Source of the DNA: a virus
Strand: one strand, 5' to 3'
DNA: 32,048 nucleotides
Virus record (IMG/VR): IMGVR_UViG_3300027779_002112
Coordinates: 1-32,048 of that record
This document shows, one piece after another, positions 6,925 through 23,414 of this stretch (position 1 is the first letter of the stretch; every line of letters starts with the position of its first letter). Position numbers and translations under genes: made by a program. A model generated the notes under the pieces. It ran no database searches. It was not told the DNA's origin and saw only the letters and a list, made by a program, of their open reading frames with translations.

Positions 6925-6978
6925 ATGAAAAGAAGACAGTTTTTATCATCGCTAGCTGGACTTGCTGCTTTAACGCAA
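6925..6978 (+). repeat. Leader repeat, copy 1 (pseudopilin)
   Basis: The first 18 codons of the pseudopilin match the first 18 codons of the DUF1501 gene at 50 of 54 bases. All four differences are synonymous third-position changes (codons 9, 12, 14 and 17). Similarity begins at the ATG and ends at codon 18; upstream and downstream sequences are unrelated. The protein sequence is therefore exactly conserved, which suggests it is under selection. Confidence 0.9.
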
Positions 6979-7623
6979 ATCCGTGCATCGCGTCATCACT
7001 TAAGTCAACGTGGTTTGACGCTCCTCGAACTATTAGTCGTATTAGTGATTTTAATTGCGACCTCCCTGATCATATTCACCACCTTTAACAACATTGATAT
7101 CGCCTCGCCGTCTGGTAAGTCCAACAGCCCTGTCGAAATTGCTACGCAAGCTACGCTGAACACCGTTCGTGAAGCAATGGCGGGAGAAGACGGCGTCATT
7201 GAGTCACTGTCACACAAGACAAATGCTCTTCCAAGAGAAATCAACGACCTTCTTAAAGAAGATGCACCAGCACATATGGAAGAAGCCGCCCCCGAACTTA
7301 AAAACTACGATCCGGTCAACAAAATTGGCTGGCATGGACCCTATATACATGCGACGGGGCGAAACGAAACTGGTGAACCAACAATCGTGGATGGTTGGGG
7401 AAATGAACTTGAGTTACAGGTCGATTTTGACCAAGACGGAATCATCAATCAAACAGAATCCAAATTCATTCGCGTGGTTTCAGCAGGACCAAATGGGCAA
7501 ATCGAGACGCCAGATGACATTACGAACATGAAACCGGGAGAGAATGAGGTCAACGAACTTACTCTCTCAGAATGCGGTGACGATTTAGTCATGTTTCTTC
7601 GCTACCCTGATAATCGCAAGTAA
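6925..7623 (+). CDS. Pseudopilin (GspG-like) with a grafted twin-arginine leader
   Basis: This 232-residue protein has a type IV prepilin/T2SS pseudopilin signature: G30 then LTLLELLVVLVILI, with the conserved Glu at +5 (E35), followed by one transmembrane helix. The C-terminal part has VDGWGNELEL, a DQDG turn and VSAGPNGQ...PDDI, as in GspG-type pseudopilins, many of them planctomycete. Unusually, residues 1-18 are a twin-arginine-like leader (RRQFL then a hydrophobic Ala/Leu run), identical to that of the DUF1501 protein downstream. No in-frame start lies between it and G30, so the leader is genuinely translated. Seven of nine arginine codons after the leader are CGN, unlike the AGA-rich neighbours, suggesting recent acquisition. 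RBS is GGAG about 9 nt upstream. Confidence 0.8.
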   Translation: MKRRQFLSSLAGLAALTQIRASRHHLSQRGLTLLELLVVLVILIATSLIIFTTFNNIDIASPSGKSNSPVEIATQATLNTVREAMAGEDGVIESLSHKTNALPREINDLLKEDAPAHMEEAAPELKNYDPVNKIGWHGPYIHATGRNETGEPTIVDGWGNELELQVDFDQDGIINQTESKFIRVVSAGPNGQIETPDDITNMKPGENEVNELTLSECGDDLVMFLRYPDNRK

Positions 7624-7676: not shown

Positions 7677-7730
7677 ATGAAAAGAAGACAGTTTTTATCA
7701 TCACTAGCTGGGCTTGCCGCTTTAACACAA
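7677..7730 (+). repeat. Leader repeat, copy 2 (DUF1501 gene)
   Basis: This is the second copy of the 54-base twin-arginine leader. DUF1501 proteins normally carry a Tat-type N terminus (family knowledge), so this copy is more likely the source and the pseudopilin copy the recipient. The direction of copying is inference. Confidence 0.88.
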
Positions 7731-8891
7731 ACGCTCAAGGCTAACGAGAAGGAATTAAAGAAAAAGGGTAAATCGGCCATTCTACTATGGATGGGAGGTG
7801 GCCCTTCTACTATGGACATCTGGGATCTCAAACCAGACGCCCCAACCGGAGGTCCATTTAAACCAATTTCTACAACCGGCGACGTTGAGATCTGTGAACA
7901 CATGCCACTAATGGCGAAACAGATGCACAACATGGCGATCATTCGCAGTATGAGTACTCGTGAAGCTGACCACATGCGTGGCCGTTACTATATGCACACA
8001 GGCTATGTCCCTAATCCAAACATGGTTCATCCAAGTTATGGGTCTATACTTTCTAAAGAGCTAGAAAGGGAAGACCTAATGATACCCCAGTTTGTATCTA
8101 TTAACGGTCCAAGTGCTGGAGCAGGTTTTCTTGGTGCGGAGTATTCACCGTTTGTTGTAAATAGCGACGGTAGAATTAGAAATCTAGACTTAAAAATAGA
8201 TGACAGATTCCATCAAAGAGCACAAGCTCTACATTTAATGGAAAACAACTTCATAAAAAACAATAGAGGATCTCTCGCTAAAGAGCATCAAAAGATACTG
8301 CGAAAAACATTTGATGTTTTGACCAGCAGTGAGATGGACGCAATGAAAGTAGAAGGCGAGCCAGAATCTGTTAAGGAGCGTTACGGAGATAATAGCTTTG
8401 GCAAGGGATGTCTAATGGCCAGAAGGCTTGTTGAAGTTGGCGTTCCATTTATCGAGGTCGGGCTAAACGGTTGGGATAACCACCAGAATATTTTTCCAAC
8501 ATTAAAAGACACAAAGCTACCCATGCTAGATCAAGGCATGAGTGCGTTAGTAGAAGACCTAGAGCAACGAGGATTGCTTGACGACACAGCTATCATATGG
8601 ATGGGAGAGTTCAGTAGAACCCCAAGCATTAACCAGAACGCCGGACGAGACCACTGGGCGAGAAGCTGGAGTGTGGCTGTGGGTGGAGCTGGCATGAATG
8701 GCGGTATAGCTGTAGGATCAACAAACGAAGACGGAACTAAAGTGGAAACAGAAACGCACTCCTCCGAAGATGTGATGGCTTCAGTTTGTAAGGCTCTTGG
8801 CATTTCACTACAAACCACTTACACGAGTAATGCTGGACGACCAATGAAGATAGCTAACTCCGGAAAAGTAATCTCTGAATTATTTTCTTAA
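7677..8891 (+). CDS. DUF1501 family protein, Tat-exported
   Basis: This 404-residue protein belongs to DUF1501, a family with an alkaline-phosphatase/sulfatase-like fold that is very common in Planctomycetota and has no settled function. Evidence: Tat leader MKRRQFLSSLAGLAAL, then AILLWMGGGPSTMDIWDLKP (about 33-52), SMSTREADHMRGRYYMHTG, GLNGWDNHQNIF, WMGEFSRTPSINQ and NAGRDHWARSWSV, all in family order. The His/Asp residues in the last blocks are likely metal ligands. Arginine codons at about 7940-7985 are all CGC/CGT, whereas from about 8060 on they are mostly AGA/AGG/CGA, so the gene may be a mosaic. It should be exported folded. It is followed 14 nt later by a PAP2 phosphatase gene. Confidence 0.87.
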   Translation: MKRRQFLSSLAGLAALTQTLKANEKELKKKGKSAILLWMGGGPSTMDIWDLKPDAPTGGPFKPISTTGDVEICEHMPLMAKQMHNMAIIRSMSTREADHMRGRYYMHTGYVPNPNMVHPSYGSILSKELEREDLMIPQFVSINGPSAGAGFLGAEYSPFVVNSDGRIRNLDLKIDDRFHQRAQALHLMENNFIKNNRGSLAKEHQKILRKTFDVLTSSEMDAMKVEGEPESVKERYGDNSFGKGCLMARRLVEVGVPFIEVGLNGWDNHQNIFPTLKDTKLPMLDQGMSALVEDLEQRGLLDDTAIIWMGEFSRTPSINQNAGRDHWARSWSVAVGGAGMNGGIAVGSTNEDGTKVETETHSSEDVMASVCKALGISLQTTYTSNAGRPMKIANSGKVISELFS

Positions 8892-9582: not shown

Positions 9583-9611
9583 TTGACTTTTTTGATATCT
9601 TAGACTATAAT
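9583..9611 (+). promoter_or_regulatory. Strong sigma70-type promoter for the polymerase genes
   Basis: TTGACT (9583-9588; 5 of 6 to consensus) and TATAAT (9606-9611; perfect) are separated by exactly 17 bp in an AT-rich intergenic region. Expected transcription start is near 9618. It reads into the split DNA polymerase genes. It is the only clearly consensus promoter I saw in the window, and suggests use of the host housekeeping sigma factor. Confidence 0.85.
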
Positions 9612-9691: not shown

Positions 9692-11314
9692 ATGGATTGG
9701 TTTCCACTATGCAACTATACTCACTATTCACTTCAACGCGGCTTTTCAAAGCCCAACGAACTTGCCAAAAAATGCTCAGAAAATTTTTATCCAGCCTGTG
9801 GAATAGCTGATTATAAATCTATATCTGGTGCTATTTCTTTTTATCAATCATGTCTTGCAAACAACATCAAGCCAATTATTGGTTGTTCTTTTGATGAGTT
9901 CTCTCTATTCGCAAAGAATAAAGATGGATGGTTTAACCTTATTGAATTGATCTCCTCTATAAACGAAGGTGGAGACGTAGACCCAACCTTGCTATTGAAC
10001 ATAACCAGCTTGGGCAATCTTATATCCGTCGCATCTGACGAATCCGCGTCTCCAATAAAGGGCGAAGACTTTTACAAAAAGTCAGAATCTTTTACAGATG
10101 TATACTATACCAACAAAGACGACGCGGGGCTACATAGAATTATCCTCTGCTCCAGCATGAAAACCACATTGCCAAAAGTTAGCAAGGCGATTAGAAGTGG
10201 AGAAGGAGTTAAAAACCACATCTTCTTCGAGTCAAATGATTTTTACCTTAAAAACAAGACAGAGATTGGCGAAATCATAATCAACGATAATAGACTTAAA
10301 GATTTCAAAGAGATATATAATAAATGCGAGAACTATAACATTCTTAATCAGCCAAATCTTCCAAAGTTTAAAACACCTGACGGTCAAACACAGAAGGATC
10401 ACCTCAGATCTTTAGCTCGCAAGGGCTGGACAGAACTACTGTCTAACAAAATTACAGCCCCAGAAGATAAAAAGATTTACGGAGATAGGTTTAGGAAAGA
10501 GTTTGAAGTTATTGAAGGGGCAAAACTTTTTGGTTACTTCTTAATTGTTAGAGACATTATAGAATATGTTACCAGCCAAGGCTGGATGGTAGGTCCGGGA
10601 AGAGGATCTGCGGCTGGATGTCTTATATCTTACCTAGTTGGAATAACTCAAATTGATCCCATTGAATATGATTTGATCTTTGAAAGATTCTACAACGCAG
10701 GTAGAAATACTGAAGACCACATCTCCCTACCTGATATCGACATCGACGTACCCGGAGGTAAACGTGACGAGATTATATCATATCTAAAACACAGATACGG
10801 CAACGACAATGTTAGCCAGATGATTACGTTTGGCAGGCTACAAGGCAGGAGTGCTTTAAAAGAAGTGCTACGTGTAAACGCCGCTTGTGGATTTAGCGAG
10901 ATGAATGAAATCACAAAAGCAATTCCAGATGAAGCATCCATCTCCGATCAACTCGCAGAGATGGACGAAGAAGACAGATCAATAATACGTTGGTCTCTAA
11001 TTAATAATGCTGATGAGCTTAGAGACTACTGCTTTGTAAACGATGACAATCAACTAGATGGAGATTACGCTGAGTATTTTCGCCAAGCCATTAATATAGA
11101 AGGAACATTTAAGACGCAAGGTAAACACGCTGCTGGCGTTGTTATATCAGCAGAGGAGTTGTATAAAGTTTGCCCCATGGTTAACCCTAAAAGCGGAACA
11201 GAAAAAATCGCTGGCCTTGAAATGGCCGACCTAGAGGCTCTCGGACACGTTAAGTTTGATGTTTTAGGCATTAATCTTTTGGATAAACTAATGATGATTA
11301 AGGAGCTAGTATGA
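9692..11314 (+). CDS. dnaE: DNA polymerase III alpha, N-terminal half (PHP and palm)
   Basis: This 540-residue protein is the first piece of a C-family replicase. PHP-like domain is at about 5-230, then the palm: GPGRGSAAG (301-309), PDIDIDV with the paired catalytic Asp (D348/D350/D352 region), and KFDVLG with the third Asp (D523), matching E. coli D401, D403 and D555. It ends about 17 residues later. The PHP is degenerate: the HxH before YS reads CNYTHYS, and TDH is ADY, so metal-dependent proofreading is probably lost. Fingers, beta-binding and OB regions are in the gene at 11978. RBS AAGGA lies 6 nt before the ATG, downstream of the promoter at 9583. Its stop overlaps the exonuclease ATG as ATGA. 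Confidence 0.92.
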   Translation: MDWFPLCNYTHYSLQRGFSKPNELAKKCSENFYPACGIADYKSISGAISFYQSCLANNIKPIIGCSFDEFSLFAKNKDGWFNLIELISSINEGGDVDPTLLLNITSLGNLISVASDESASPIKGEDFYKKSESFTDVYYTNKDDAGLHRIILCSSMKTTLPKVSKAIRSGEGVKNHIFFESNDFYLKNKTEIGEIIINDNRLKDFKEIYNKCENYNILNQPNLPKFKTPDGQTQKDHLRSLARKGWTELLSNKITAPEDKKIYGDRFRKEFEVIEGAKLFGYFLIVRDIIEYVTSQGWMVGPGRGSAAGCLISYLVGITQIDPIEYDLIFERFYNAGRNTEDHISLPDIDIDVPGGKRDEIISYLKHRYGNDNVSQMITFGRLQGRSALKEVLRVNAACGFSEMNEITKAIPDEASISDQLAEMDEEDRSIIRWSLINNADELRDYCFVNDDNQLDGDYAEYFRQAINIEGTFKTQGKHAAGVVISAEELYKVCPMVNPKSGTEKIAGLEMADLEALGHVKFDVLGINLLDKLMMIKELV

Positions 11315-11985
11315 ATCGTGATATTATAATGTTTGACTTTGAGACCGGTGGTAGAAACCCTCTTAAATGCCAACCCACTCAGATTGCAGCAATCGCCTTG
11401 GACGGTAGAAACTTTAGACTCAAGGGAGAGTTTAACAGCATGATGCGTCCAATCATAGACGATGACAAAGCAATCGCGGCAGGCGTTGACCCAATTGAAG
11501 AAGGTGCTTTAAAAGTAACTGGTCAAACAAGAGAGCAGCTTGCTAAAGCCCCTCTACCAAGAGGTGTATGGAAAAAGTTCTGCACATTTGTAAACAAGTA
11601 CAACTGGAAGGGCACACCTTATTTTGCACCAATTCCAGCAGGATTTAATATCTTGGGTTACGATATGAAAATCGTAGACCGACTCTGTAAAGAGTACGGC
11701 CCGTTTGACGACAAGCGGCAGTGCCAAAAACTATTCCATCAGATTTATAAGATTGACGTTATGGATGACGTATGGCTTTGGACGGAGGGTGATCCAGCCG
11801 TCAAGTCAATCAGCATGGATAGCCTGCGAGAACGCATGGGTCTGTCTTCTGAAAATGCTCACGACGCACTTCAAGACGTTAAGGATACGGCAAACATTTT
11901 CATTAAACTGCAAAAATCTCGTAGAGCAGTTTATCGTAACATGAAATTCGAAAAGGCGTTCGCAGACGGAAAGTTTTATGTCTAA
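11311..11985 (+). CDS. DnaQ-like 3'-5' proofreading exonuclease (DEDDh)
   Basis: This 224-residue exonuclease probably proofreads for the split polymerase that surrounds it. ExoI is FDFETGG (D9, E11), ExoII is GFNILGYDM (D118), and ExoIII is NAHDALQDV (H184, D189), giving a full DEDDh active site. The gene sits exactly between the two halves of Pol III alpha: its ATG overlaps the upstream stop as ATGA, and its end overlaps the next gene by 8 nt. All three should therefore be made from one message by translational coupling. In PolC the exonuclease is inserted in the polymerase chain; here it is a separate protein. Confidence 0.9.
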   Translation: MNRDIIMFDFETGGRNPLKCQPTQIAAIALDGRNFRLKGEFNSMMRPIIDDDKAIAAGVDPIEEGALKVTGQTREQLAKAPLPRGVWKKFCTFVNKYNWKGTPYFAPIPAGFNILGYDMKIVDRLCKEYGPFDDKRQCQKLFHQIYKIDVMDDVWLWTEGDPAVKSISMDSLRERMGLSSENAHDALQDVKDTANIFIKLQKSRRAVYRNMKFEKAFADGKFYV

Positions 11986-13543
11986 TATTGATTATAAAGA
12001 TGAGAAAACTTGGCAGCTTTTTAGTGACGGTAAAACTAAAGGTATCTTCCAGCTAGAAAGTAACTTGGGAAGAAGCTGGTCTAAAAAGTTAGCTCCAGAA
12101 AACATAGAAGAATTAGCAGCACTCATAGCTATTATTAGGCCGGGATGTCTAAAGGCTATTATTGATGGTAAATCTATGACTCAAAGATTTGTAGATAGAA
12201 AACACAAGAACGAGGAAGTTACCTATCTACACGAGTCTTTGGAGGAAGTCCTCAAGCCTACCTATGGAGTGCTTGTTTATCAAGAGCAGTCTATGCGTAT
12301 AGCACAGAAGCTAGCTGGTTTTGACCTTAAGAAAGCTGACGATCTTCGTAAGGCTATTGGTAAGAAGAAAGCTAGTCTCATGGCTGAGATTCGTGTAGAC
12401 TTTGTTGAGGGGTGCAAAAAGGTCGGGTTAGTTGACGAAGATACAGCTTCTGAGATCTTTGGCTGGATTGAAAAGTCTTCTAGATACTCGTTCAACAAGT
12501 CACACGCTGTTGCATACGCCGTAGACTCATTTTGGTCAGCTTGGTACAAAGCAAATCACGCCAAGGAGTTTTTTCTGTCGTACCTATACTATGCGAATGA
12601 AAAGCAAGACCCCCACCAAGAAGTTTACGAATTAGTTAATGAGGCCAAGTTATTTGATATAGATGTCAAAATTCCTAAGTTATCTTCTCATAGTGAAAAG
12701 TTTAGAATTACTGAAGATGGAATTTACTTTGGAGTTAAAGATGTTAAGAGTTTAACTGGAGTAACTGGAGACAAAGCTATGAAAGCGATTAGCGATGCCT
12801 CTGAAGAACTTGGTAAACACCCCTCTGAATTTACTTGGCTAGACGTGTTAACGAGTGTGGCCAACAAGATTAATTCAACTGGGTTTAAAGCACTGGCTTC
12901 CATAGGCTTCTTTTCAACTAAAGCAACTGGCGTGACTAGAAACAGAGCTTTGTATGAGTATTTAATTTTTAGAGAACTAACAAAGGTGGAGCTGAGTTGG
13001 GTTCAAAAGAATTATCCACAAAAGAAATGGTCTAGCTTACAAGAATGTTTCTCTGACCTCGCACCAACAAAGAAGTTTGGCGGTGGAACAAGCAACATCA
13101 ACAGAAGCCAAATTGTAACTAACGAGATAGAGATGTTAAAGTTTCCACCTTACGATCTTTCTGACGATCCAGCTTGGATTATCGAGCAAGAAAACAAGTT
13201 CTTGGGTTGCCCAATATCATTATCTAAAGTAGAGTCTTCGGACACTTCGTCAGCAAATACGTCGTGTAAAGATGTTCTAAACGGAAAAACAGGCAAAGAC
13301 ATCTGTATAGCGGCAAACTTGAATAGAGTAAACAACTATAAAGTTAAAAAGGGTAAGACCAAAGGTAAGACTATGTCATTTCTGACCATAGAAGATACCA
13401 CCTGTTCGCTAGACAGTGTTGTAATTTTTCCAGAAGCAAGAGAGAAATATCAATATGTTCTATATGAAGGCAACAACCTACTACTTTGTGGAGAAGTAGA
13501 GAAGGACAGCTCGTTTATAGTAAACAAGGTTCATGAAATATAG
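11978..13543 (+). CDS. dnaE: DNA polymerase III alpha, C-terminal half (fingers, tail, OB fold)
   Basis: This 521-residue protein continues C-family polymerase from where the 9692 gene stops. FQLES (24-28), AALIAIIRPG, KPTYGVLVYQEQ (about 93-104), LRKAIGKKK and FNKSHAVAYA (about 172-181) follow the DnaE fingers order. Helix-hairpin-helix-like and tail regions come next, and an OB fold at about 430-521 (MSFLTIEDTTCSLDSVVIFPE). It has no palm Asp of its own, so it must pair with the N-terminal half. No intein-like sequence is visible at either broken end, so the pieces probably associate non-covalently. An ATG in the exonuclease 3' end starts it. Combined length of the halves (about 1060) is close to normal DnaE (about 1160). 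Confidence 0.92.
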   Translation: MSNIDYKDEKTWQLFSDGKTKGIFQLESNLGRSWSKKLAPENIEELAALIAIIRPGCLKAIIDGKSMTQRFVDRKHKNEEVTYLHESLEEVLKPTYGVLVYQEQSMRIAQKLAGFDLKKADDLRKAIGKKKASLMAEIRVDFVEGCKKVGLVDEDTASEIFGWIEKSSRYSFNKSHAVAYAVDSFWSAWYKANHAKEFFLSYLYYANEKQDPHQEVYELVNEAKLFDIDVKIPKLSSHSEKFRITEDGIYFGVKDVKSLTGVTGDKAMKAISDASEELGKHPSEFTWLDVLTSVANKINSTGFKALASIGFFSTKATGVTRNRALYEYLIFRELTKVELSWVQKNYPQKKWSSLQECFSDLAPTKKFGGGTSNINRSQIVTNEIEMLKFPPYDLSDDPAWIIEQENKFLGCPISLSKVESSDTSSANTSCKDVLNGKTGKDICIAANLNRVNNYKVKKGKTKGKTMSFLTIEDTTCSLDSVVIFPEAREKYQYVLYEGNNLLLCGEVEKDSSFIVNKVHEI

Positions 13544-13624: not shown

Positions 13625-13948
13625 ATGAATAATTGTGTTTTTACTGGGTATATATACGATGACCCTGAAATAAAAAGAGATGATTACAACGACAGTAATG
13701 CAGAATACTGTGAGTTTACCCTGATTACCTACGAGTATGTCAGGAATAAAAGAGGTGAAAAGAAAAGATATCCCACTTATCTCAGGCTCAAGGCTTGGGA
13801 CAGCGGCGGAAAGACAATTGCCAAACTCGGAAAACAAGGAATGAAGATAACGGTAAATGCTTCTGCCAAAAATGTGTACTCAGAAAGTGACACAGAAATT
13901 ATCTTTAGAGTAAATCAATTCGACTTCGGATGCTTGGACAAGGAATAA
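13625..13948 (+). CDS. ssb: Single-stranded DNA-binding protein, OB fold
   Basis: This 107-residue protein resembles bacterial SSB: MNNCVFTGYIYDDPEIK at the start, EFTLITYEYVRNKRGE, then YPTYLRLKAWDSGGKTIAKLGKQG, which matches the SSB strand/loop order. It would coat single strands at the fork. It is shorter than E. coli SSB (178) and has no flexible tail or terminal DDxPF peptide, so it probably does not recruit host repair proteins in the usual way. RBS is GGAG about 8 nt upstream. It follows the polymerase block, and its stop is 1 nt before the first glycosyltransferase, so ssb and the glycan operon may share a transcript. Confidence 0.82.
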   Translation: MNNCVFTGYIYDDPEIKRDDYNDSNAEYCEFTLITYEYVRNKRGEKKRYPTYLRLKAWDSGGKTIAKLGKQGMKITVNASAKNVYSESDTEIIFRVNQFDFGCLDKE

Positions 13949-13949
13949 A

Positions 13950-15632
13950 ATGAGAAAAAAACGCATACTATTTTGTAGCGAGGCTACATTCTTAAATACT
14001 GGTTATGCTACCTATACTAGAGAAATATTAAACTATCTTCACAGTACAGGTAAATACGAGATAGCGGAGATGGCCTCTTATGGAGAAAGGAATGACCCAA
14101 GAGCCGCCAACATACCTTGGAGGTACTATGGTGTTGTGCCAAACCAGACGTGTGAGCCAAAAGCTTCTGAAGAAGAGATGCAATCCTATCAATCCAATGG
14201 AGCCTCTCAGTTCGGTGAATGGATATTTGAACACGTTTGTTTAGATTTTATGCCAGACGTAGTATGTGATATCCGTGATTTTTGGATGCTTGAGTTTGCA
14301 GAAAGGTCTCCATTCAGACCTTACTTTAAATGGTGTGTCATGCCAACTGTAGACGCAAGACCGCAAGCTAGACAGTGGGTTGCTACATACAAGTCAGCAG
14401 ACGCTTGCTTGACCTACTCTGACTGGGCAGGAGAGGTGTTGAAAGATCAATCGGGAGATACAATCAATTATCTTGGTTCAGCACCACCCTCAGCTCATCC
14501 AGCGTACCAGCAAGTAGAAGACAAGGTTGCTCACAAAAAATCCCTAGGAATAGATCCAGAGTATAAAATCATCGGGACGGTTATGCGTAATCAAAGACGC
14601 AAGCTTTACCCAGATCTTTTTGAAGCGTTTAAAAAGTTCTTAGATCAATCAGAAGACAAAAAGTTTTACTTATATTGCCATACATCTTATCCTGACTTGG
14701 GTTGGGACATACCAGAGCTTATACAAGAGCATGGATTGTCTTCACATGTTTTGTTCACCTATATATGTCCAGAAACAAAGAACACGTTTCCGTCTCTCTT
14801 TCATGGTGCCGTAGCTCAATCTCCGTTCACTGGAAAGTGGGGTTCTACACTTTCTAATGTAAAAAATGGTGCATCTTATGAACAACTGTCTTCAATCATT
14901 AGCCTGTTTGATCTGTACGTTCAGTATGCTAACTGTGAAGGTTTTGGCCTTCCAATTGTAGAAGCTGCTGCCTGTGGCGTTCCAGTTATGGCGACGGACT
15001 ATTCAGCCATGGAAAGCGAAGTGAGGAAACTAGAAGGTTTCCCAATTAAACCAGCGGCACTTTATAAAGAACTTGAAACTGGATGTTTACGTGCTGTACC
15101 CGACAACGATTTAGCGTGTAAAATGTTTGGCGATTTCTTTAAACTTTCACCTGAAGAAAGAGAGTCGATAGGAAAGCGAACAAGAGCTAATTTCGACAAG
15201 CACTTCCAGTGGCACCTGAGCGGTAAAAAGTGGGAAGATTATTTTGATAGTGTAGAACTACAACCAGTAGAAGCTACTTGGGCATCTCCCCCAAGAATCC
15301 ACAACCCTCAACCAAAGCCCGATCAGCCTCCACAAGGGGTAAGCACTAATGAGTTAGCTAGATGGCTAATAACTAATGTGCTAGGAGACCAATCCAAGTG
15401 TAATAGCTTCTTTGAAGCCAGACTAACAAGAGACCTCTTATATCGCTCTGCGACTTCGTCTACGGGCGGCATGTATTTCAATGAGTCATCAGCAGCATTT
15501 GACGGAGTTAACCACAGAGTTGAATTTAATTTCGACATTGCTTACGACCAAATGGTAAATATGTGTAATAGAACAAACAGTTGGGAACAAAAAAGAGCTG
15601 AAGTGATGAAACAAAGGGGGTTGATCAAATGA
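13950..15632 (+). CDS. Glycosyltransferase family 4-like, with extra C-terminal domain
   Basis: This 560-residue GT-B glycosyltransferase starts with a Rossmann strand (KRILFCSEATFLNTGYATY) and has the donor-binding EGFGLPIVEAAACGVPVMAT at about 329-348, typical of GT4 (retaining, nucleotide-sugar donor). The catalytic part ends near residue 440. A Pro-rich linker (PPRIHNPQPKPDQPPQ, about 450-466) follows, then about 95 residues not belonging to GT4 and not recognised. That tail could bind the acceptor or a virion protein. It is the first of the cluster and overlaps the next gene as ATGA. Confidence 0.85.
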   Translation: MRKKRILFCSEATFLNTGYATYTREILNYLHSTGKYEIAEMASYGERNDPRAANIPWRYYGVVPNQTCEPKASEEEMQSYQSNGASQFGEWIFEHVCLDFMPDVVCDIRDFWMLEFAERSPFRPYFKWCVMPTVDARPQARQWVATYKSADACLTYSDWAGEVLKDQSGDTINYLGSAPPSAHPAYQQVEDKVAHKKSLGIDPEYKIIGTVMRNQRRKLYPDLFEAFKKFLDQSEDKKFYLYCHTSYPDLGWDIPELIQEHGLSSHVLFTYICPETKNTFPSLFHGAVAQSPFTGKWGSTLSNVKNGASYEQLSSIISLFDLYVQYANCEGFGLPIVEAAACGVPVMATDYSAMESEVRKLEGFPIKPAALYKELETGCLRAVPDNDLACKMFGDFFKLSPEERESIGKRTRANFDKHFQWHLSGKKWEDYFDSVELQPVEATWASPPRIHNPQPKPDQPPQGVSTNELARWLITNVLGDQSKCNSFFEARLTRDLLYRSATSSTGGMYFNESSAAFDGVNHRVEFNFDIAYDQMVNMCNRTNSWEQKRAEVMKQRGLIK

Positions 15633-16771
15633 GAGTATTATATATAGGACATTACAAAGAGTTTGGAGGTTGGTCTCAAGCTGCTACAGATCAAATACTA
15701 GCACTTGACGCCGTGGGTGTTGACGTTGTTTGTAGAAACGTTACGTTAACTTCAGACAAGACCAACGTTCACCCAAGAATTTTAGAGCTTGAGAAAAAAG
15801 ACTCATCAAATTGCGACTTTTGCATACAGCATATCTTGCCGCACCATCTCGTAGGCACCGGTGGATATAAGAAGAATATAGCATTTTTAGAAGCTGAATC
15901 TTTTAGTATTAAACCTCTAGGCTGGTTTGAGCACCTACAGCAAATGGACGAGATCTGGGTTCCAAACAAGACGCTTCTTGAGTCTCTAGAAAGAGATGAA
16001 ATTGGTATTCCCGTAAAGCTAGTGCATCATGCAACAGACGTAAAAAAATATAAGAAGAAATATCAAGATGTTTCTATTCCAGCGGCTAACGACACGTTTA
16101 AATTTTATTATGTGGGTGATCTAAACGACAGAAAGAACATTAGCTGTATCTCTTCTTGTTTTCACAGCGAGTTTGATAAGTCCGAAGACGTGTCCTTGAT
16201 GTTGAAGGTTAAGAAGTTTGGACTTACGCCTCAGCAAACGCAGACACAGTTAGACCAAATGCTAGCCATGAATAAACAACTGTTAAGAATATATCCTTCT
16301 GCTCAGGATTATAAAAAAGAAGTTGTTATATCTTCGGAAGTTTCAGAAGAAGAATTGTACTCTATACATAACTATGGCGATTGCTTTGTGTTACCGTCTC
16401 ACGGGGAGGCTTGGTCAATCCCATCGCTAGACGCTATTGGTTTTGGAAACACTCCAATCTGTAGCGATTTTGGTGGTCCTTCAGAGTTCATAGATCCAGA
16501 AGATAAGAACACTGGAACTCTAGTTAACGGAGTCTTTGCGTGTTGCAGGTGTTCCGACGCCGCATTTCCAGACATCTTTACTGGAAGAGAGTATTGGTTC
16601 CAGCCGTGTGAAAAAACAATCAGAGAAAGTATGAGAGCCTACTACGAAGCATACAAACAAAACCCCATTGCGTATAAGCAAAGAGCTAAGGCTGCTGGGC
16701 TAAGTGTGGTAGAAAAGTTCTCTTACAAAAACATAGGAGAAAGAATGTTGGAGGTACTAAATGAGTCATAA
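15629..16771 (+). CDS. GT-B glycosyltransferase
   Basis: This 380-residue glycosyltransferase has N-terminal MRVLYIGHYKEFGGWSQAA and a C-terminal donor domain. FYYVGDLNDRKN starts the second Rossmann lobe at about 154, and PSHGEAWSIPSLDAIGFGNTP (about 254-274) is a variant of the GT4 E-x7-E motif. A Cys-rich insert (FACCRCSD) lies near 307-314. Sugar and acceptor are unknown. Coupled to both neighbours (ATGA before, 11-nt overlap after). Confidence 0.78.
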   Translation: MRVLYIGHYKEFGGWSQAATDQILALDAVGVDVVCRNVTLTSDKTNVHPRILELEKKDSSNCDFCIQHILPHHLVGTGGYKKNIAFLEAESFSIKPLGWFEHLQQMDEIWVPNKTLLESLERDEIGIPVKLVHHATDVKKYKKKYQDVSIPAANDTFKFYYVGDLNDRKNISCISSCFHSEFDKSEDVSLMLKVKKFGLTPQQTQTQLDQMLAMNKQLLRIYPSAQDYKKEVVISSEVSEEELYSIHNYGDCFVLPSHGEAWSIPSLDAIGFGNTPICSDFGGPSEFIDPEDKNTGTLVNGVFACCRCSDAAFPDIFTGREYWFQPCEKTIRESMRAYYEAYKQNPIAYKQRAKAAGLSVVEKFSYKNIGERMLEVLNES

Positions 16772-17753
16772 AACATTGGGTATTATAAATAGATCCCTAA
16801 ATCCAACTAAGGAAAAGTATAAGATCCTTACGTTTGATACACATGAAAGATACCAAACCCAGTTGTGTAAAACTGGTCATGATTTCTATTCGTTTAGATA
16901 TGAAAATTGTAAAGAATGGGATGAAAATTACGCCAAGAAACCAGAAAACTATTACACATTGCCTAAAAACTCTGTAATTTCTGGGCTAGACTTTGATTTG
17001 ATTTTAAGTCAGAGTAAATTTGGCCAATTTCAAGTAGCCAGTCAATTGAACAGCACCTTTAACTTGCCTATGATATCTTTGGAGCATACTCTACCTATAC
17101 CTAGTTGGCCTCAAGATCAGCTTAACTCTTTCAAGAGCATGGTGGGCGACGTTAATGTGTTTATATCTGAGTACTCGATAGATAAATGGGGCATAAAATG
17201 TGACCCAAAAGTTATTCATCACTCAGTTGATACCGACATGTTTAAGCCCACGTCTAAGACAGCTACTACAGAAGTACTTAGCGTAGTTAACGACTTTAAG
17301 AATCGCGACTACTGCTGTAACTACAGTGGCTGGGAAAGAGTCAGCGAAGGTTTTGACGCCAAGCTGGTTGGAAGCTCGCCTGACGGCTCCTCAAAGCCTG
17401 CTGAGTCTATAGAGGCTCTTGTGGACGAGTATAACTCAGCTAAGGTATTCCTTAACACATCGACAATTAGCCCTGTTCCAACATCACTTTTAGAAGCTAT
17501 GGCTTGTGGGTGTGCGGTAGTGACAACGGCTACATGTATGATTCCTGAAATTATAAAAAATGGAGTCAACGGATTCATGTCAAACGACGAGAACGAGCTA
17601 AAAGGTTACATTAAAAAACTTTTAGACGACAAAGAGTTGGCTATCCACCTAGGAAATAACGCCAGAGAAACAATCAAAGATAAATTCTCAGAACAGAAGT
17701 TTATTGAAAACTGGAACAAAACTTTCGACCTAGCATACGGAGCTAAAAAATGA
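16761..17753 (+). CDS. GT-B glycosyltransferase
   Basis: This 330-residue glycosyltransferase has a GT4-type C-terminal half: LNTSTISPVPTSLLEAMACG at about 232-251, then AVVTTATCMIPEIIKNGVNG and a helical tail with LLDDKELAIHLGNNAR. The usual first Glu of E-x7-E is replaced (SPVPTSLLEA), leaving one Glu. The N-terminal lobe is divergent but includes an LEHTLPIPSW segment at about 110. It may use a different donor from its two upstream relatives. Its start is inside the preceding gene; its end overlaps the next as ATGA. Confidence 0.78.
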   Translation: MSHKTLGIINRSLNPTKEKYKILTFDTHERYQTQLCKTGHDFYSFRYENCKEWDENYAKKPENYYTLPKNSVISGLDFDLILSQSKFGQFQVASQLNSTFNLPMISLEHTLPIPSWPQDQLNSFKSMVGDVNVFISEYSIDKWGIKCDPKVIHHSVDTDMFKPTSKTATTEVLSVVNDFKNRDYCCNYSGWERVSEGFDAKLVGSSPDGSSKPAESIEALVDEYNSAKVFLNTSTISPVPTSLLEAMACGCAVVTTATCMIPEIIKNGVNGFMSNDENELKGYIKKLLDDKELAIHLGNNARETIKDKFSEQKFIENWNKTFDLAYGAKK

Positions 17754-18166
17754 AAATTCAAGTCGCCAAAATGAGCGGAGACATAATCGAAGGGTACAAC
17801 CACATAGTTGTGTCAGACAATCACATAAACTATATGAACATCTCAGATAATGAATGTATAGAAATACTAGCAAACGATGTGCTAGACTCTTTTACTGATG
17901 ATAAAATTCAAGATTGCATAGTGTCACTAGTCTCTAAGCTGAGACTGGGAGGTAAACTTGTGATCGGAGGAAAGGACTTGAGATTATTTTGCAAGTCAGT
18001 TTTAAACGGGCTAGTAAGTAGGGGTGAAGCATCGAGTGTTTTACAAAACACAAACTCTATGCCGTCATTAAAAGAAATAACTCCCATCATAGAGCGTACG
18101 GGCTTGAAGATTTTAAGCACGCAGCTTTCTGGTATACACTTTGAAGTAGTCGCACAGAGAGGTTAA
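17750..18166 (+). CDS. Reduced methyltransferase-like protein
   Basis: This 138-residue protein matches the second half of class I SAM methyltransferases: ILANDVLDSFTDD, a helix, then KLRLGGKLVIGG (type 11-like motif after the SAM site), and a final Ile/Leu strand with FEVVAQRG. The usual N-terminal SAM-binding GxGxG is missing, and there is little upstream room for it, so it may be non-catalytic or act with a partner. Similar short proteins occur in phage glycan clusters (family memory, not checked). Confidence 0.5.
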   Translation: MKIQVAKMSGDIIEGYNHIVVSDNHINYMNISDNECIEILANDVLDSFTDDKIQDCIVSLVSKLRLGGKLVIGGKDLRLFCKSVLNGLVSRGEASSVLQNTNSMPSLKEITPIIERTGLKILSTQLSGIHFEVVAQRG

Positions 18167-18167
18167 T

Positions 18168-18953
18168 ATGGATTGCTCAACATGTATTTTTGCTGACACT
18201 AGACCTCCGATTGAGTTTCCGTTTGGTTTGTTGCAATGTGGATGTAAAGTAAAAAGGTTAGACACTTTGGTAAAGAGGGGTGAAGCGAGTTTAGCCCAAT
18301 CCACGCTAGAGGGAGAACAAGCCAACTACTACAAGTTGGATAGATTCTGCAACATGTACAGAACATCTAAGTGGAAAAGAGACTCCAAAATTCAAAACCC
18401 AGAAGAGTCAGCAAGAAAAGAATCTAAGTGTAGCTTTGGAATAGTAGTAGAGGTATCAGACCAAGAAGAAGAAGACGTAAGAAAGACCACAGAATCGTTA
18501 AAAAACATCTGTTACGAAAAAGAAAACATAGCCATTGTTTTTTCTAGTCTTACCAAAACGCTTCCTACACAAGTGCTAATTAACCAAATTCATAATTTTA
18601 TGGATCTGAATATAGACTGCCAACTAGTGGTGCATAGCGGTTGGTCACAAAAAGAAGAAAAAGATAAAGACGCCTTTACGCCTCTAATGACAAAATCCAG
18701 AAACTATTTGATAAAAATAGAAGCAGGACAGACAATAGACGGTGATTTCTTTAATTTCATAGACACGGATGTAAACAAAGTTTTAAATATGACAACTTAT
18801 TTTCAAGATGTTGATCGCGATGTTTCCGCAATCGCTTTTGGAGTTGTTAACTCTCAGTACCCGAATTACCTAGACTATGACTTGATGCTAAAAGAAATGA
18901 GGAAACTTTCCATAGATCAGAAAAGTTATAGGGAATATGAGAAGAAGAACTAG
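18168..18953 (+). CDS. Cys-rich N-terminus plus GT-A-like domain, function uncertain
   Basis: This 261-residue protein begins with closely spaced Cys: CSTC at 3-6, CGC at 24-26 and C near 62, which could bind Zn or an Fe-S cluster. From about 90 a divergent nucleotide-sugar transferase-like fold appears: CSFGIVVEVSDQEEEDVRKT, a middle region with LVVHSGW, then NYLIKIEAGQTIDGDFFNFID, where GT2 enzymes have their acceptor-side DD. No clear DxD is present, so activity is uncertain. One base separates it from the upstream gene, and the next gene starts 17 nt inside its 3' end. Confidence 0.5.
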   Translation: MDCSTCIFADTRPPIEFPFGLLQCGCKVKRLDTLVKRGEASLAQSTLEGEQANYYKLDRFCNMYRTSKWKRDSKIQNPEESARKESKCSFGIVVEVSDQEEEDVRKTTESLKNICYEKENIAIVFSSLTKTLPTQVLINQIHNFMDLNIDCQLVVHSGWSQKEEKDKDAFTPLMTKSRNYLIKIEAGQTIDGDFFNFIDTDVNKVLNMTTYFQDVDRDVSAIAFGVVNSQYPNYLDYDLMLKEMRKLSIDQKSYREYEKKN

Positions 18954-19683
18954 ATTTATAACCAGCCCAGTTGGTCAAAAAAACGAAAGCAGCCTAGAGT
19001 CTTTTGTTTCGATAGTGCTATTCAGTGAAAATCACGGATACCGAATGAAGTCCTATGGGCCAATTTCGTTGATGAAAATTGAAGGTAAAGCACTAATACA
19101 AAGACAAATAGAGGCGATAAAAGCGACGTTTAAAAACTTTGAAATTATCTTGTGTTCAGGATTTGAAACACATAAAACAGTAGAGTTTGTAAAAAACAAC
19201 TTTTCTGAAATCAATATACGTGTCGTAGAAAATCAAATTCACTTTAATTCAAACGACTGTGAAAGTGCCAGACTTTGCCTTCATAACATAAACAATACTA
19301 GGGTCTTGTTGTGCAACGGTGCTTTATTAATCACGCCAGAGATGTTAAGAAGCATAGACTACAGCAAGTCTACAGTGTTGTGTCAAGAGAAAGACGATTA
19401 CAAAAACTTTGACGTTGGAGTAATTCAAAATGGTGGCTTTCTTGAATCAATGGCTGTTGGAATAAAAACAAAAGTCTGGAACGAGGTTATCTATCTAGGA
19501 AACAAAAAAATAATAAATAATCTCTATAATACTATATCTAATCCAGAATATAAAAACAGGTTTCTTTTTGAAGCTATAAACGTAGTTTTAAAAGACAATA
19601 GAATGATGGCTGTAGAAACTTTAGACGCACCTACTATAAAAATACAAAACATAAAAACACTAAAGAGGATTACAAAGATATGA
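18937..19683 (+). CDS. Sugar nucleotidyltransferase-like protein
   Basis: This 248-residue protein looks like a divergent NTP_transferase (GlmU/RfbA N-terminal fold) that would charge a sugar phosphate to an NDP-sugar. SIVLFSENHGYRMKSYGPISL (about 25-45) sits where LAAGxGxRLxPxTxxxPK does, followed by KIEGKALIQRQIEAI and an FEIILCSGF strand. The glycine-rich loop is degenerate (SENHGYRM) and the usual Lys is lost, so it could be inactive or use another donor. A strand LLCNGALLI near 128 corresponds to the metal-binding strand, but no Asp is visible there. Sugar pathway placement fits the epimerase nearby. Confidence 0.55.
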   Translation: MRRRTRFITSPVGQKNESSLESFVSIVLFSENHGYRMKSYGPISLMKIEGKALIQRQIEAIKATFKNFEIILCSGFETHKTVEFVKNNFSEINIRVVENQIHFNSNDCESARLCLHNINNTRVLLCNGALLITPEMLRSIDYSKSTVLCQEKDDYKNFDVGVIQNGGFLESMAVGIKTKVWNEVIYLGNKKIINNLYNTISNPEYKNRFLFEAINVVLKDNRMMAVETLDAPTIKIQNIKTLKRITKI

Positions 19684-20555
19684 GAATTCTAGTACAAAAT
19701 TACACTTCCTCGCTTTCTACAGAGGCGATGTACATGCAGCGTTGTCTTTCGGAGGTTGGCGAGGAGTCTTTTCTATGGAATGACCCAAACGCCAGTGCCT
19801 TTGACACTTTTGATTTCACAAAGCCAGATCTTTTTATTACACATTTTAAGTATCTTACAAATGACATGGTTAAGTACTTGTCTGCAAATAAAAATATAAG
19901 TATGGCGTTGAATATATCTGGTGCCCAACAACAAGAACTTGATATGATTGAAAGCATGGCCAGTGACAGCAAGATTGACATACCACTATTATTTACAAAC
20001 GAATACGGTAAACGACTCTCTGCAAAGAGTTTAAAATTAGAAAGCGTATATCCCGCCGCTGACCTATTCATACCAAGGATGCCAACACCAAACTATGAGA
20101 TAGATTCATGTATATTCTCTGTATCAAACAACGATCTTGTAAAAGAAGCTGCTAATAAAGAAGACAACTACCATATTGCCTCACTAAACCCGCAAGACCA
20201 AAGTGGTTATTCAGACATGTACATGGATGTCACCTCGGCTGTGTCGTTTTACGAGAAGTATAAAAAGATAATACTAGCGGATGATGTGAACGTGGTCACA
20301 TCGCAATTACTCTTTGATTCATTATTAAGATGTAAGAGTATAAACATAAAGGTTGACAAAAGCCAACAATCTCAGCTAGATAAAATATTAGCAACACTTT
20401 TTGTCGAAACTTCAGAGGGTGGAGACTTAGGGCAAATACTAAAGAACCAAGTTAAATCTCGACACAACTGCTTCAAACGTGTTTCTAGACTATTAAGACT
20501 CTTGAAGGCCCAAGAAATTTCGGAGAAACTAGAAAGGTTTGGTGATAAAATATGA
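19680..20555 (+). CDS. Probable GT-B-like protein, unrecognised family
   Basis: This 291-residue soluble protein has an N terminus (MRILVQNYTSSLSTEAMYMQ) and a DLFITHFKYL segment that resemble the N-terminal lobe of GT-B enzymes. The C-terminal half shows no donor motif. The last 50 residues are helical and basic. The first bases (ATGARAATTCTAGTACA) match the start of the gene at 21445, probably from shared N-terminal strand MxILVQ rather than recent duplication. Function unknown beyond its place in the glycan cluster. ATGA overlaps link it on both sides. Confidence 0.45.
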   Translation: MRILVQNYTSSLSTEAMYMQRCLSEVGEESFLWNDPNASAFDTFDFTKPDLFITHFKYLTNDMVKYLSANKNISMALNISGAQQQELDMIESMASDSKIDIPLLFTNEYGKRLSAKSLKLESVYPAADLFIPRMPTPNYEIDSCIFSVSNNDLVKEAANKEDNYHIASLNPQDQSGYSDMYMDVTSAVSFYEKYKKIILADDVNVVTSQLLFDSLLRCKSINIKVDKSQQSQLDKILATLFVETSEGGDLGQILKNQVKSRHNCFKRVSRLLRLLKAQEISEKLERFGDKI

Positions 20556-21448
20556 ACGTTATAGTTACCGGAGGTGCAGGATTTATTGGTTCTCATTTGG
20601 TGGACCGGCTAGTCGATGAAGGCCACAAAGTTTTAGTTATTGATGACCTATCAGCAGATAGTCACGAACAATTTTATTTTAATGATGGTGCAGAGTATTC
20701 TTACTATTCAGTATCCGATTATTATAACATAAAACATCACTTTGAAGGTGTAGACTTGGTTTTCCACTTGGCCGCTGAGTCTAGAATACAGCCATGTATC
20801 CAAAATCCCGTAATGGCAACCCTAACAAACACGGTCGGAACTTGTAGTGTTCTGCAAGCAGCCAAGGAAGCTGGTGTTAAAAGAGTAATGTATTCGTCAA
20901 CCTCGGCGGTGTACGGTGTTGCCCACCCCATTCCTTTAAACGAAAACATGGAGAATGACTGTCTAAACGCATATTCTGTGACCAAGGTTGCAGGAGAAGA
21001 GCTTTGCAAAATGTTTTACAAACTATACGGTCTAGAGACTGTCATTTTTAGATATTTTAATGTATACGGAGACAGACAACCAACTAGTGGACAATATGCA
21101 CCAGTGGTTGGATTATTCCAAAGACAACTTAAAGAAGAGACCCCGCTTACAGTGGTTGGGGATGGACTCCAGTCGAGAGATTTTACACACGTCTCAGATG
21201 TGGTAGAAGCCAACCTCAAGGCGGCGTTTACAGAGAACAAGCGTGCTTTTGGTCAGACCTTTAATATTGGTGCTGGTAAAAATTACACGGTGATGGATCT
21301 GGTGAAAATGGTGGGCGGAGAAGACGCGTTCTATGTCAATCTGCCAGAAAGATTAGGCGAGGCCAGACATAGCAAGTCAGACACCAGCAAGGCTAAAGAA
21401 ATATTAGAATGGGAAGCAAAGGTTGACCTAGGAGAATGGTTAAAATGA
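20552..21448 (+). CDS. NAD-dependent sugar epimerase (extended SDR)
   Basis: This 298-residue extended SDR would convert an NDP-sugar by C4 epimerisation. The NAD-binding TGGAGFIG is at 6-13, VFHLAAESR at about 70-78, SSTSAVYG at 115-122 and YSVTK at 141-145 (Tyr141/Lys145 catalytic). FRYFNVYGDRQ and SRDFTHVSDVV are typical of GalE/WbpP-type enzymes. SSTS instead of the TDE triad argues for an epimerase over a 4,6-dehydratase. Sugar unknown; UDP-GlcNAc or UDP-Glc are likely. Starts by ATGA overlap; its 3' end holds the next start. Confidence 0.87.
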   Translation: MNVIVTGGAGFIGSHLVDRLVDEGHKVLVIDDLSADSHEQFYFNDGAEYSYYSVSDYYNIKHHFEGVDLVFHLAAESRIQPCIQNPVMATLTNTVGTCSVLQAAKEAGVKRVMYSSTSAVYGVAHPIPLNENMENDCLNAYSVTKVAGEELCKMFYKLYGLETVIFRYFNVYGDRQPTSGQYAPVVGLFQRQLKEETPLTVVGDGLQSRDFTHVSDVVEANLKAAFTENKRAFGQTFNIGAGKNYTVMDLVKMVGGEDAFYVNLPERLGEARHSKSDTSKAKEILEWEAKVDLGEWLK

Positions 21449-22155
21449 AAATTCTAGTACAGCTACCAACATTCGCAAGAGCTGAAAAATTCCTTCGGGT
21501 TTTAGATCTATACGTAGAAACTGCCAGTAGCCACAACGACATACTATTTAATATAAATTGTGATGTCGAAGACCATAGTATGACAGATGAATATGTAAAG
21601 GAAAGGATGAAGTATATCTTTTCTAAAAAACAAAACGTAAAAGGAAACGTGTGGTACGATAACGACACAGAGAAAATTAGTGCGATAAACGATCATATTA
21701 ACGGTGTTGATTTTGATATTTTGGTTTGTGCGTCTGACGACATGGTTCCTAAAGTACACTCTTGGGATCAAGAAATTGTAATAGCAATGAATAAGCACTT
21801 CCCCGACCTAGATGGATGTGTCCACTTTGACGATGGAAACACTCATGGTAAACTAATAACGTTCTCTATACTTGGACGAAAGCTTTACGACTATTTTGGA
21901 TATATATACCATCCAGACTACAAGAGTCTTTACTGCGACGACGAGTTTACTCAGGTTGTGCAAGCAATCGGTAAAGAACAGTATGTAGATAAAGTCATCA
22001 TAACACATGAGCACTATAGTGTAGAAGGAACGCAAAACGAAGGAGACTTTGATTTAGCCGCCCAAAAAACACTGCACTATTCAGGTAGAGACCATCAAGT
22101 CTTTAACAAACGAAAAGAACTTGGATTCCCGGTAGGAAGAATAACAAACGACTAA
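21445..22155 (+). CDS. GT2-like (GT-A) glycosyltransferase
   Basis: This 236-residue protein shows a GT-A-like layout: KILVQLPTFAR at the start, DILFNINCDVED, then ILVCASDDMVP (about 91-101; likely DxD site), VHFDDGN and a YCDDEFTQV block that resembles the catalytic-base region. No membrane segment. I use ATG 21445 (ATGA overlap with the epimerase stop) instead of 21436, since the protein then begins at the first beta strand. Donor and acceptor unknown. Confidence 0.62.
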   Translation: MKILVQLPTFARAEKFLRVLDLYVETASSHNDILFNINCDVEDHSMTDEYVKERMKYIFSKKQNVKGNVWYDNDTEKISAINDHINGVDFDILVCASDDMVPKVHSWDQEIVIAMNKHFPDLDGCVHFDDGNTHGKLITFSILGRKLYDYFGYIYHPDYKSLYCDDEFTQVVQAIGKEQYVDKVIITHEHYSVEGTQNEGDFDLAAQKTLHYSGRDHQVFNKRKELGFPVGRITND

Positions 22156-22164
22156 GGAAACAAA

Positions 22165-22782
22165 ATGGATCACGATCTAAAGAATTTTAATTTAATTAGA
22201 CAAGAATCACTAATAGAGCTTGGGGATGTAGCTGTAGATGTCGGTGCGTGTCACGGTGCGTATACTTCTTTTTTCTCTAGCTTGCTAGGAAACACCGGCA
22301 AGATTTACTGCGTAGAACTTTTCCCACCTACATTTCAAATGCTTGAGATGCGTTTTGGACACTCTAAAAATATAGAGTTTGTAAACGCTGCCGTGTCTGA
22401 CACCGTAGGTAAAGAGGATATGTATGCGGGAGACACGAATGAAGAGCACAACATAGTAGGCCACAACATGTCGCATCAGCCAGTAGCAAAAGTTGGGGAA
22501 ATTAATTCTATTACACTAGACGAACTATTAAAAGACGAGAAAGAGATCTCGCTAATCAAGATAGATGTCGAGGGTGCCGAGCTAAAGGTTCTCCACGGAA
22601 TGAAAGAAATTATGAAGAGAACCAAGTCTATTCTTATAGAAAATCATTTAGATGAAATTTGGCCTGAAATTAGAAAGATTCTTATTGAAGATAATGGCTT
22701 CAAGTGCTATAATATAGAGACAGAAGAAAGTGTGGACATGAACAGCAAAAGACCGTACCAGTGCCTGTGTAGGAGAGTTTAA
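22165..22782 (+). CDS. FkbM family SAM-dependent methyltransferase
   Basis: This 205-residue methyltransferase carries the SAM-binding VAVDVGACHGAYTSFFSSLLG (about 22-42) and YCVELFPPTF (acidic post-strand 2 residue). It also has the FkbM hallmark LIKIDVEGAELKVLHGM at about 133-149 and a final ILIENH. FkbM enzymes O-methylate sugars and polyketides, so this probably caps or decorates a glycan residue. Gap of 9 nt from the preceding gene; its stop overlaps the next start as TAATG. Confidence 0.85.
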   Translation: MDHDLKNFNLIRQESLIELGDVAVDVGACHGAYTSFFSSLLGNTGKIYCVELFPPTFQMLEMRFGHSKNIEFVNAAVSDTVGKEDMYAGDTNEEHNIVGHNMSHQPVAKVGEINSITLDELLKDEKEISLIKIDVEGAELKVLHGMKEIMKRTKSILIENHLDEIWPEIRKILIEDNGFKCYNIETEESVDMNSKRPYQCLCRRV

Positions 22783-23414
22783 TGAAAGTTATAGCTTTTA
22801 GTCTTTGGGGCGACAATCCAAAGTATACTATGGGTGCTGTCAAAAATGTGGAGATAGCCAGAGAATTATTTCCAGATTGGGTTTGTAGATTTTACATAGC
22901 ACCAGATGTTCCTAAATACATAATAAAAACCCTTTGCGATCTAGACGCTGAATGCTCTATGATGCTAGATTCTGGGTGGAACGGTATGTTTTGGAGGTTC
23001 TTTGCAGCGGACTCTCACGACGTTGTTCTTTCTAGGGACACCGATTCAAGATTGAGCAAAAGAGAACAAATAGCAGTGGACGATTGGTTAAAAAGCGACA
23101 AAGACTTTCATATAATGCGTGATCATCCGTACCACGCTACCGAAATATTGGGTGGCATGTGGGGTTCTAGGAACGGAGTCCTCAAGGGTGTAAAAGAAAT
23201 GATAAAAAATCACGATAATGGATCGTACGACGACAAGTATCAGGTAGATCAAAACTTCTTACGAGATGTAGTATATCCGATTGTTAAAGACAACTCTACT
23301 ATTCACGACGAGTTCTTTGACAAGAAGCCGTTTCCCTCTAACGCTCCCGCAAGAACTAACTCTTATTTTGTTGGACAGGTATACAACCACCTAGATCAGC
23401 CGGAGTTTAGATAA
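22782..23414 (+). CDS. GT-A type glycosyltransferase (phage glycan cluster)
   Basis: This 210-residue protein has MKVIAFSLWGDNPKY, a strand leading to VVLSRDTDSRLSKREQIAV (about 84-102) where DTDSR looks like a DxD metal/sugar site, then MRDHPYHATEILGGMWGSR. The combination of RDTDSR and an RDHP...GGMWG segment recurs in glycosyltransferase-like proteins in phage and bacterial glycan clusters (memory). It is short for a GT and lacks a hydrophobic anchor. Function inferred from motif and neighbours. Confidence 0.62.
   Translation: MKVIAFSLWGDNPKYTMGAVKNVEIARELFPDWVCRFYIAPDVPKYIIKTLCDLDAECSMMLDSGWNGMFWRFFAADSHDVVLSRDTDSRLSKREQIAVDDWLKSDKDFHIMRDHPYHATEILGGMWGSRNGVLKGVKEMIKNHDNGSYDDKYQVDQNFLRDVVYPIVKDNSTIHDEFFDKKPFPSNAPARTNSYFVGQVYNHLDQPEFR

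Follow-up and report, generated by a model that had tools for sequence, protein, structure and literature searches.

A DNA polymerase III alpha subunit encoded in two pieces around an exonuclease gene in a clade of viral contigs

The sequence analysed here (the window, 32,048 bases) is the IMG/VR virus fragment IMGVR_UViG_3300027779_002112, which is of metagenomic origin. It carries the alpha subunit of a DnaE-type DNA polymerase III (Pol III) as two separate genes, named here alpha-N and alpha-C, with a gene for a DEDDh exonuclease between them; a helicase and a primase are also encoded in the window. The features of this three-gene module and its immediate surroundings are as follows.

9583-9611, plus strand: sigma-70-like promoter, TTGACT-17-TATAAT, 11 of 12 matches (a consensus match only)
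9692-11314, plus strand: alpha-N, 540 amino acids; degenerate PHP, palm and thumb of a DnaE-type Pol III alpha
11300-11305, plus strand: AAGGAG, a Shine-Dalgarno-like site within the end of alpha-N, 5 nucleotides before the exonuclease ATG (read from the sequence)
11311-11985, plus strand: DEDDh exonuclease, 224 amino acids; its start overlaps the alpha-N stop (ATGA)
11978-13543, plus strand: alpha-C, 521 amino acids; fingers, the following helical region and OB fold
13625-13948, plus strand: SSB-like protein (Pfam SSB, E 1.1e-8), a neighbour and not part of the polymerase

The alpha-N and exonuclease genes overlap by 4 nucleotides (nt), as ATGA, and the exonuclease and alpha-C genes by 8 nt. 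The first-pass annotation, made from the sequence alone, had described a DEDDh exonuclease joined to the two halves in this way, and the open reading frames (ORFs) lie exactly where it put them. Among relatives of the module (see below), promoter-like sites with at least 10 of 12 matches occur upstream of alpha-N in 53 of 174 cases against 6.2 expected, while the counts upstream of the exonuclease (3 of 174) and of alpha-C (2 of 171), with 7 expected for each, show no enrichment. Because of the start-stop overlaps and the promoter-like sites ahead of alpha-N alone, the three genes most likely form a single transcript with coupled translation; together with the Shine-Dalgarno-like site, these features also bear out the earlier proposal of one translational unit. 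The SSB-like gene follows alpha-C in most relatives.

Pfam searches found PHP and DNA_pol3_alpha domains in alpha-N, RNase_T in the middle gene and DNA_pol3_finger in alpha-C (E 3.5e-49). Thus the components of a C-family polymerase, namely PHP, a palm with three catalytic aspartates, fingers and OB fold, are all present, distributed across two polypeptides, and the complete set of catalytic and fingers motifs is retained across both halves. In the profile phrog_405, which represents the whole phage polymerase, positions 243-612 are matched by alpha-N and 624-1055 by alpha-C; since the two proteins cover adjoining positions, almost no sequence has been lost at the break. A profile search of solved structures gave a similar picture, with alpha-N corresponding to residues 9-572 and alpha-C to 590-1057 of Escherichia coli alpha. 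The catalytic residues D348, D350 and D523, with D352, all lie within alpha-N, as had been noted originally, and are invariant in 141 complete sets of the three genes. Since the catalytic aspartates are in alpha-N and the fingers in alpha-C, neither half alone should be a polymerase.

AlphaFold models of the single chains had confidences (pLDDT, predicted local distance difference test) of 88.9 for alpha-N and 91.8 for alpha-C. The alpha-N model aligned with residues 4-572 of E. coli alpha (2hnh; Z 27.8, root-mean-square deviation (rmsd) 3.5, 497 residues aligned), and the alpha-C model with residues 586-1073 of E. coli alpha (5fku chain A; Z 23.0, rmsd 8.5, 450 aligned) and with 614-1099 of 7pu7 (Z 21.0, rmsd 3.8, 447 aligned). 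On PolC (3f2c), alpha-N was placed at 340-1115 and alpha-C at 1119-1444. The halves are therefore complementary; what they lack of E. coli alpha amounts to one loop of about 13 residues, and the break falls between E. coli residues 572 and 586-590. By the domain limits that we assume, this position is presumably just within the beginning of the fingers, so that the original description of an alpha split in two stands, and its placement of the split exactly between palm and fingers needs a small correction. In the alpha-N model, confidence drops to 52-69 at residues 301-340, around an invariant GPGRGS motif, and this modelled region may need the fingers of alpha-C for its order.

The middle gene matches RNase_T (E 6.4e-10) and phrog_192, named 'DNA polymerase exonuclease subunit' (E 2.5e-27), and its DEDDh residues D9, E11, D118, H184 and D189 are invariant in the 141 complete sets. 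The nearest solved structures by sequence are exonuclease I (1fxx, E 3.9e-5), followed by the PolC exonuclease 2p1j. Past the nuclease core the protein has a strongly conserved C-terminal tail, which, judging from its conservation, might bind alpha. With the exonuclease as a marker, cultured phages yielded weak matches below 30% identity, and none with the copy from contig L338.

Relatives were collected by scans of viral contigs and bacterial genomes, giving 156 non-identical contigs and then 26 more divergent ones; each scan of viral contigs covered the best 80 loci, and the totals for the clade are lower bounds. The order alpha-N, exonuclease, alpha-C on one strand was found in every one of the 146 first-set contigs with all three genes and in 26 of 26 divergent ones. 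This survey of gene order thus counts 172 of 172 complete contigs, with identity to the window as low as about 38% for alpha-N and about 45% for alpha-C, and since every contig long enough shows the same order, chance is excluded. No ORF in these contigs contained both alpha-N and alpha-C, and no uninterrupted (fused) alpha within the clade occurred among the matches listed in the viral contig scans. The ratio of nonsynonymous to synonymous substitution rates (dN/dS), calculated for three pairs of relatives, is 0.025-0.095 for alpha-N, the exonuclease and alpha-C; all three genes are under strong purifying selection. Over the 141 complete sets, pairwise distances correlate at 0.92 between alpha-N and alpha-C and at 0.89 between alpha-N and the exonuclease, compared with 0.64-0.69 for a nearby glycosyltransferase gene (0.65-0.69 when it is paired with either alpha half), and the alpha halves therefore co-diverge. 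In the scan of bacterial genomes, matches were confined to the 152-kb contig L343, binned in a SAR202 metagenome-assembled genome (MAG), and a fragment of a Flavobacteriales MAG. Because such matches may be misbinned virus, no host is claimed; L343, which carries the same module, could be a phage binned by mistake or could point towards the host.

Eleven virus records of 126-174 kb allowed the polymerase content of larger genomes to be considered. Each has one palm match and one fingers match, both in the module, and in each the module exonuclease is the only RNase_T protein over the cut-off. No family A or B polymerase was found in these eleven records, an absence that is provisional, and the split alpha is thus, provisionally, the only polymerase found for the large records of the clade.

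These data are best explained, in our view with good though not full confidence, by a non-covalent two-piece Pol III alpha with its own proofreader, the split having occurred a single time, in the common ancestor of the clade. Alpha-N would supply the PHP domain, palm, thumb and all catalytic aspartates, and alpha-C the fingers and OB fold, so that the polymerase active site would form only with both halves together. The native interface of palm and fingers would hold the pieces without a peptide bond, and it could do so because the broken loop, close to where the fingers begin, is a variable one. The exonuclease in the gap, likely the proofreading partner of the split alpha, would be made from the same mRNA as the halves, after alpha-N and before alpha-C, via the start-stop overlaps, which would keep the three proteins in step. 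The term 'three-subunit polymerase', proposed in the first-pass annotation, remains the best inference from the sequences.

Several observations weigh against this interpretation. Nothing corresponds to the tau-binding C-terminal domain of E. coli alpha, alpha-C ending in the OB fold (E. coli 1057-1073); of the fingers, tail and OB fold originally assigned to the second piece, the fingers and OB fold are present and the tail is only partial. This domain is not universal among phage alphas. Pfam searches of the eleven large records found no beta clamp or delta-prime (clamp-loader) families, a provisional result, and since these families and the tau-binding domain are both lacking, the enzyme must owe its processivity to something else, supplied by the host or by proteins outside the reach of Pfam. 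Extra stretches of more than 150 nt are present between alpha-N and the exonuclease in 52 of 151 contigs and between the exonuclease and alpha-C in 53 of 146; as roughly one contig in three has additional genes at each junction, the three genes need not be tightly coupled. Finally, the exonucleases of contigs L035 and L077 differ by a distance of 0.06, versus 0.31-0.34 for alpha-N and alpha-C, and a near-identical exonuclease beside distant alpha halves is a sign of local exchange of the exonuclease alone. The same was seen in the pairs L003/L080 and L107/L196, the exonucleases of all three pairs being near-identical while the alpha halves differ by 25-37%.

The alternative that survives best, although we regard it as unlikely, is that the split alpha works and the exonuclease is a passenger with another task, for example DNA breakdown. 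The exchange of the exonuclease alone in some lineages, the many passengers that the junctions accept and the fact that its best solved relative is exonuclease I would all fit such a role. Unlike the other inserts, however, it stands between alpha-N and alpha-C in every complete contig; it is also the sole RNase_T protein over the cut-off in the large records, its phrog_192 family is named for a polymerase exonuclease subunit, and its conserved tail could be a binding segment. A further alternative holds that the halves are not a polymerase at all, that host Pol III copies the phage DNA and that alpha-N and alpha-C have other tasks. The lack of clamp and loader families in the large records and of the C-terminal domain speaks for it, but the full catalytic and fingers motifs, the helicase and primase in the window and the co-divergence of the halves make it improbable.

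Joining of the halves by trans-splicing, through a split intein or split intron at the break, was suggested by the split inteins that relatives carry elsewhere in alpha and by the fact that phage split inteins are well known. At the break itself, across 181 contigs, alpha-N never runs more than 26 residues (median 3) beyond residue 540 of the window protein, too short for an N-terminal intein half of about 90 residues, and the heads of alpha-C are at most 53 residues, which is an upper bound. No Hint domain was found by Pfam in alpha-N, the exonuclease or alpha-C, and Rfam revealed no introns in the window or in L028, L033, L338, L433, L426, L038, L039, L027, L029 and L227. The short alpha-N tails rule out an intein at the break, and Rfam gave no sign of an intron; trans-splicing is largely refuted and highly improbable. 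The original statement that no intein is visible at the break is in this way extended to 181 contigs; the break also differs, as was stated, from the site of the cyanobacterial split-intein DnaE and lacks intein halves.

Elsewhere in alpha, split inteins were recognised between alpha-N residues 305 and 306 in L033, L227 and L242, and after alpha-C residue 174 in L033 and L101. In L033 the first alpha-N piece ends in about 90 residues matching Intein_splicing (E 2.6e-7, below the curated cut-off), and the next piece opens with about 35 residues ending HN|S, with a separate ORF between the pieces. The split-intein-like interruptions are located as follows.

L033, 748-3638 and 4985-7826
L227, 2581-5345
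L242, 3350-5315
L101, 8241-11130

Some relatives thus have intein-split sites and all have the intein-less break; therefore mended and unmended breaks coexist in one gene, and the unmended break is the universal one in this phage group. ORFs between the intein-split alpha pieces of L033 are nuclease-like, and further ORFs occur in the other cases. In L061 (8331-10679), alpha-C reaches 782 amino acids because of an insert in the same frame that looks like an intein in one piece.

For a sequencing error, an assembly artefact or a decaying gene speaks only the fact that the window is a 32-kb metagenomic fragment. This reading is refuted by the fixation of the split in 172 contigs, non-identical and drawn from many samples, with no uninterrupted dnaE among the matches listed, by purifying selection and by invariant active sites, which leave it a negligible probability. 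Ribosomal bypass or frameshifting that makes a full-length alpha would agree with the shared reading frame of alpha-N, which starts at 9692 in the window, and alpha-C, which starts at 11978, but the gap of about 660 nt, which reaches several kb with unrelated genes in relatives, is far beyond known bypassing and makes this equally implausible.

In a tree of the joined halves and fused phage alphas, the sampled members of the clade group together (100/100) with the fused ones outside, so that within this sample the split has a single origin. For the two-piece alpha with its proofreader, the split would have arisen in the clade ancestor, plausibly by entry of a mobile gene into dnaE, and the exonuclease would have either entered at the same time or later taken the place of the invader. 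Among the extra genes at the junctions are ORFs resembling endonuclease VII (26 contigs), HNH, methyltransferase-like, glycosyltransferase-like and other ORFs, one member per class having been tested and several classes named by eye. Their presence would fit a history of invasion by mobile nucleases; they may also post-date the split.

The alpha of the cultured Rossellomorea phage phiT1 (L426, 4968-8250) is broken at the same loop, at about 580 / 588-596 in phage PS1 numbering, into the adjacent, non-spliced genes gp20 and gp18. It differs from the window in that a 49-amino-acid ORF, not an exonuclease, occupies the gap. It groups with fused alphas, and a single clade with the group of the window is rejected (approximately unbiased test, p 0.02); judged by this phylogeny, phiT1 split its alpha independently at the same loop. 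In Bacillus phage Jayan (L433, 4986-8393), which is 97-99% identical to PS1, a stretch of about 280 nt that the intact PS1 gene lacks breaks up alpha at the catalytic motif; this fresh interruption has no Rfam intron match. Cbastvirus (Cellulophaga phage phi13:1 and Tenacibaculum phage Larrie) has two adjacent alpha genes, as here, but its alpha is broken just before the catalytic DxD and has extra extensions, and the exonuclease is a few kb away. The breaks in phiT1, Jayan and Cbastvirus indicate that phage alpha has been broken repeatedly at a few loops. Within the clade, alpha-N of L027 (4274-6264) and L029 (7950-9963) is broken again at about 343-353, just before the catalytic motif, and the second piece has a homologous N-terminal extension (about 78 residues) with no obvious intein character.

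The alpha of the window is a gene in pieces, that is, one gene in two ORFs without splicing elements, and split phage enzymes are already known, including a split Pol III alpha in jumbo phages (PMC7824862). Jumbo phages of group 2.2 likewise have a Pol III alpha made up of an N- and a C-terminal protein (Iyer et al. 2021, PMC7824862). Its genes are far apart, the protein is minimal and it accompanies a family B polymerase (PMC7824862), whereas the genes described here are adjacent around an exonuclease, have near-full domains and encode the only polymerase found; this comparison is with the published text. Aeromonas phages 25 and 44RR have a split PolB, gp43A/gp43B, which, like the alpha described here, consists of two non-spliced polypeptides of a replicative polymerase (Petrov et al. 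2010, as related in PMC2988022). According to that source, gp43A and gp43B of phage 25 co-purify with polymerase activity, a precedent for the assembly proposed here, and an insertion lies between the pieces, in one case a homing endonuclease gene. As portrayed there, this system differs in belonging to family B and not C, in occurring in few phages and not a large clade, and in having no exonuclease in the gap. A second precedent is NrdA of phage Aeh1 (Friedrich et al. 2007, cited in PMC2988022), an essential enzyme in pieces without splicing, split by a mobile gene and fully functional; it is another enzyme, and what interrupts it is the mobile nuclease itself, while the gene in the gap here likely encodes an accessory enzyme for the polymerase's own pathway. 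The split-intein DnaE of cyanobacteria and the 'fractured genes' with split inteins (Dassa et al. 2009, cited in PMC3653736) likewise present one gene as two, but with another break site and trans-splicing, where the present break has no intein halves. No prior report of the N-exo-C arrangement was found in the searchable literature, for the most part without subscription papers. Judged against this literature, three points are new: every complete member has the N-exo-C layout, a large clade has fixed it with no other polymerase found, and the same break has occurred a second time independently.

A more specific possibility, which we consider doubtful, is that the order palm, exonuclease, fingers is a selected assembly order, in which the exonuclease would first bind nascent alpha-N and sit at the seam where the fingers dock, or close to it. 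If true, proofreading would be built into the joint of a three-piece polymerase core.

Some other features of the window lie outside the module. The genes at 6925-7623 and 7677-8891 both start with the same signal-like peptide, MKRRQFLSSLAGLAALTQ, followed in the first by a prepilin-like N_methyl motif; the second encodes a DUF1501 protein, and two or more DUF1501 copies are found around this position in several relatives. An IMP dehydrogenase/GMP reductase-like gene (1879-2970; phrog_9582, dehydrogenase) is located in the replication cluster. Adjoining the module, at 13950-31675, is a long run of glycosyltransferase, sugar aminotransferase, epimerase and methyltransferase-like genes, mostly named by eye.

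Automatic annotation may label the two alpha genes as broken. The coexistence of intein-mended and unmended breaks within one gene offers a clean comparison of the two, and the module provides a natural split Pol III for biochemical work on assembly, control and reconstitution. For this phage group, the finding means that an essential replicative enzyme can remain in pieces over long evolution, and that such a state is not merely a rare accident.

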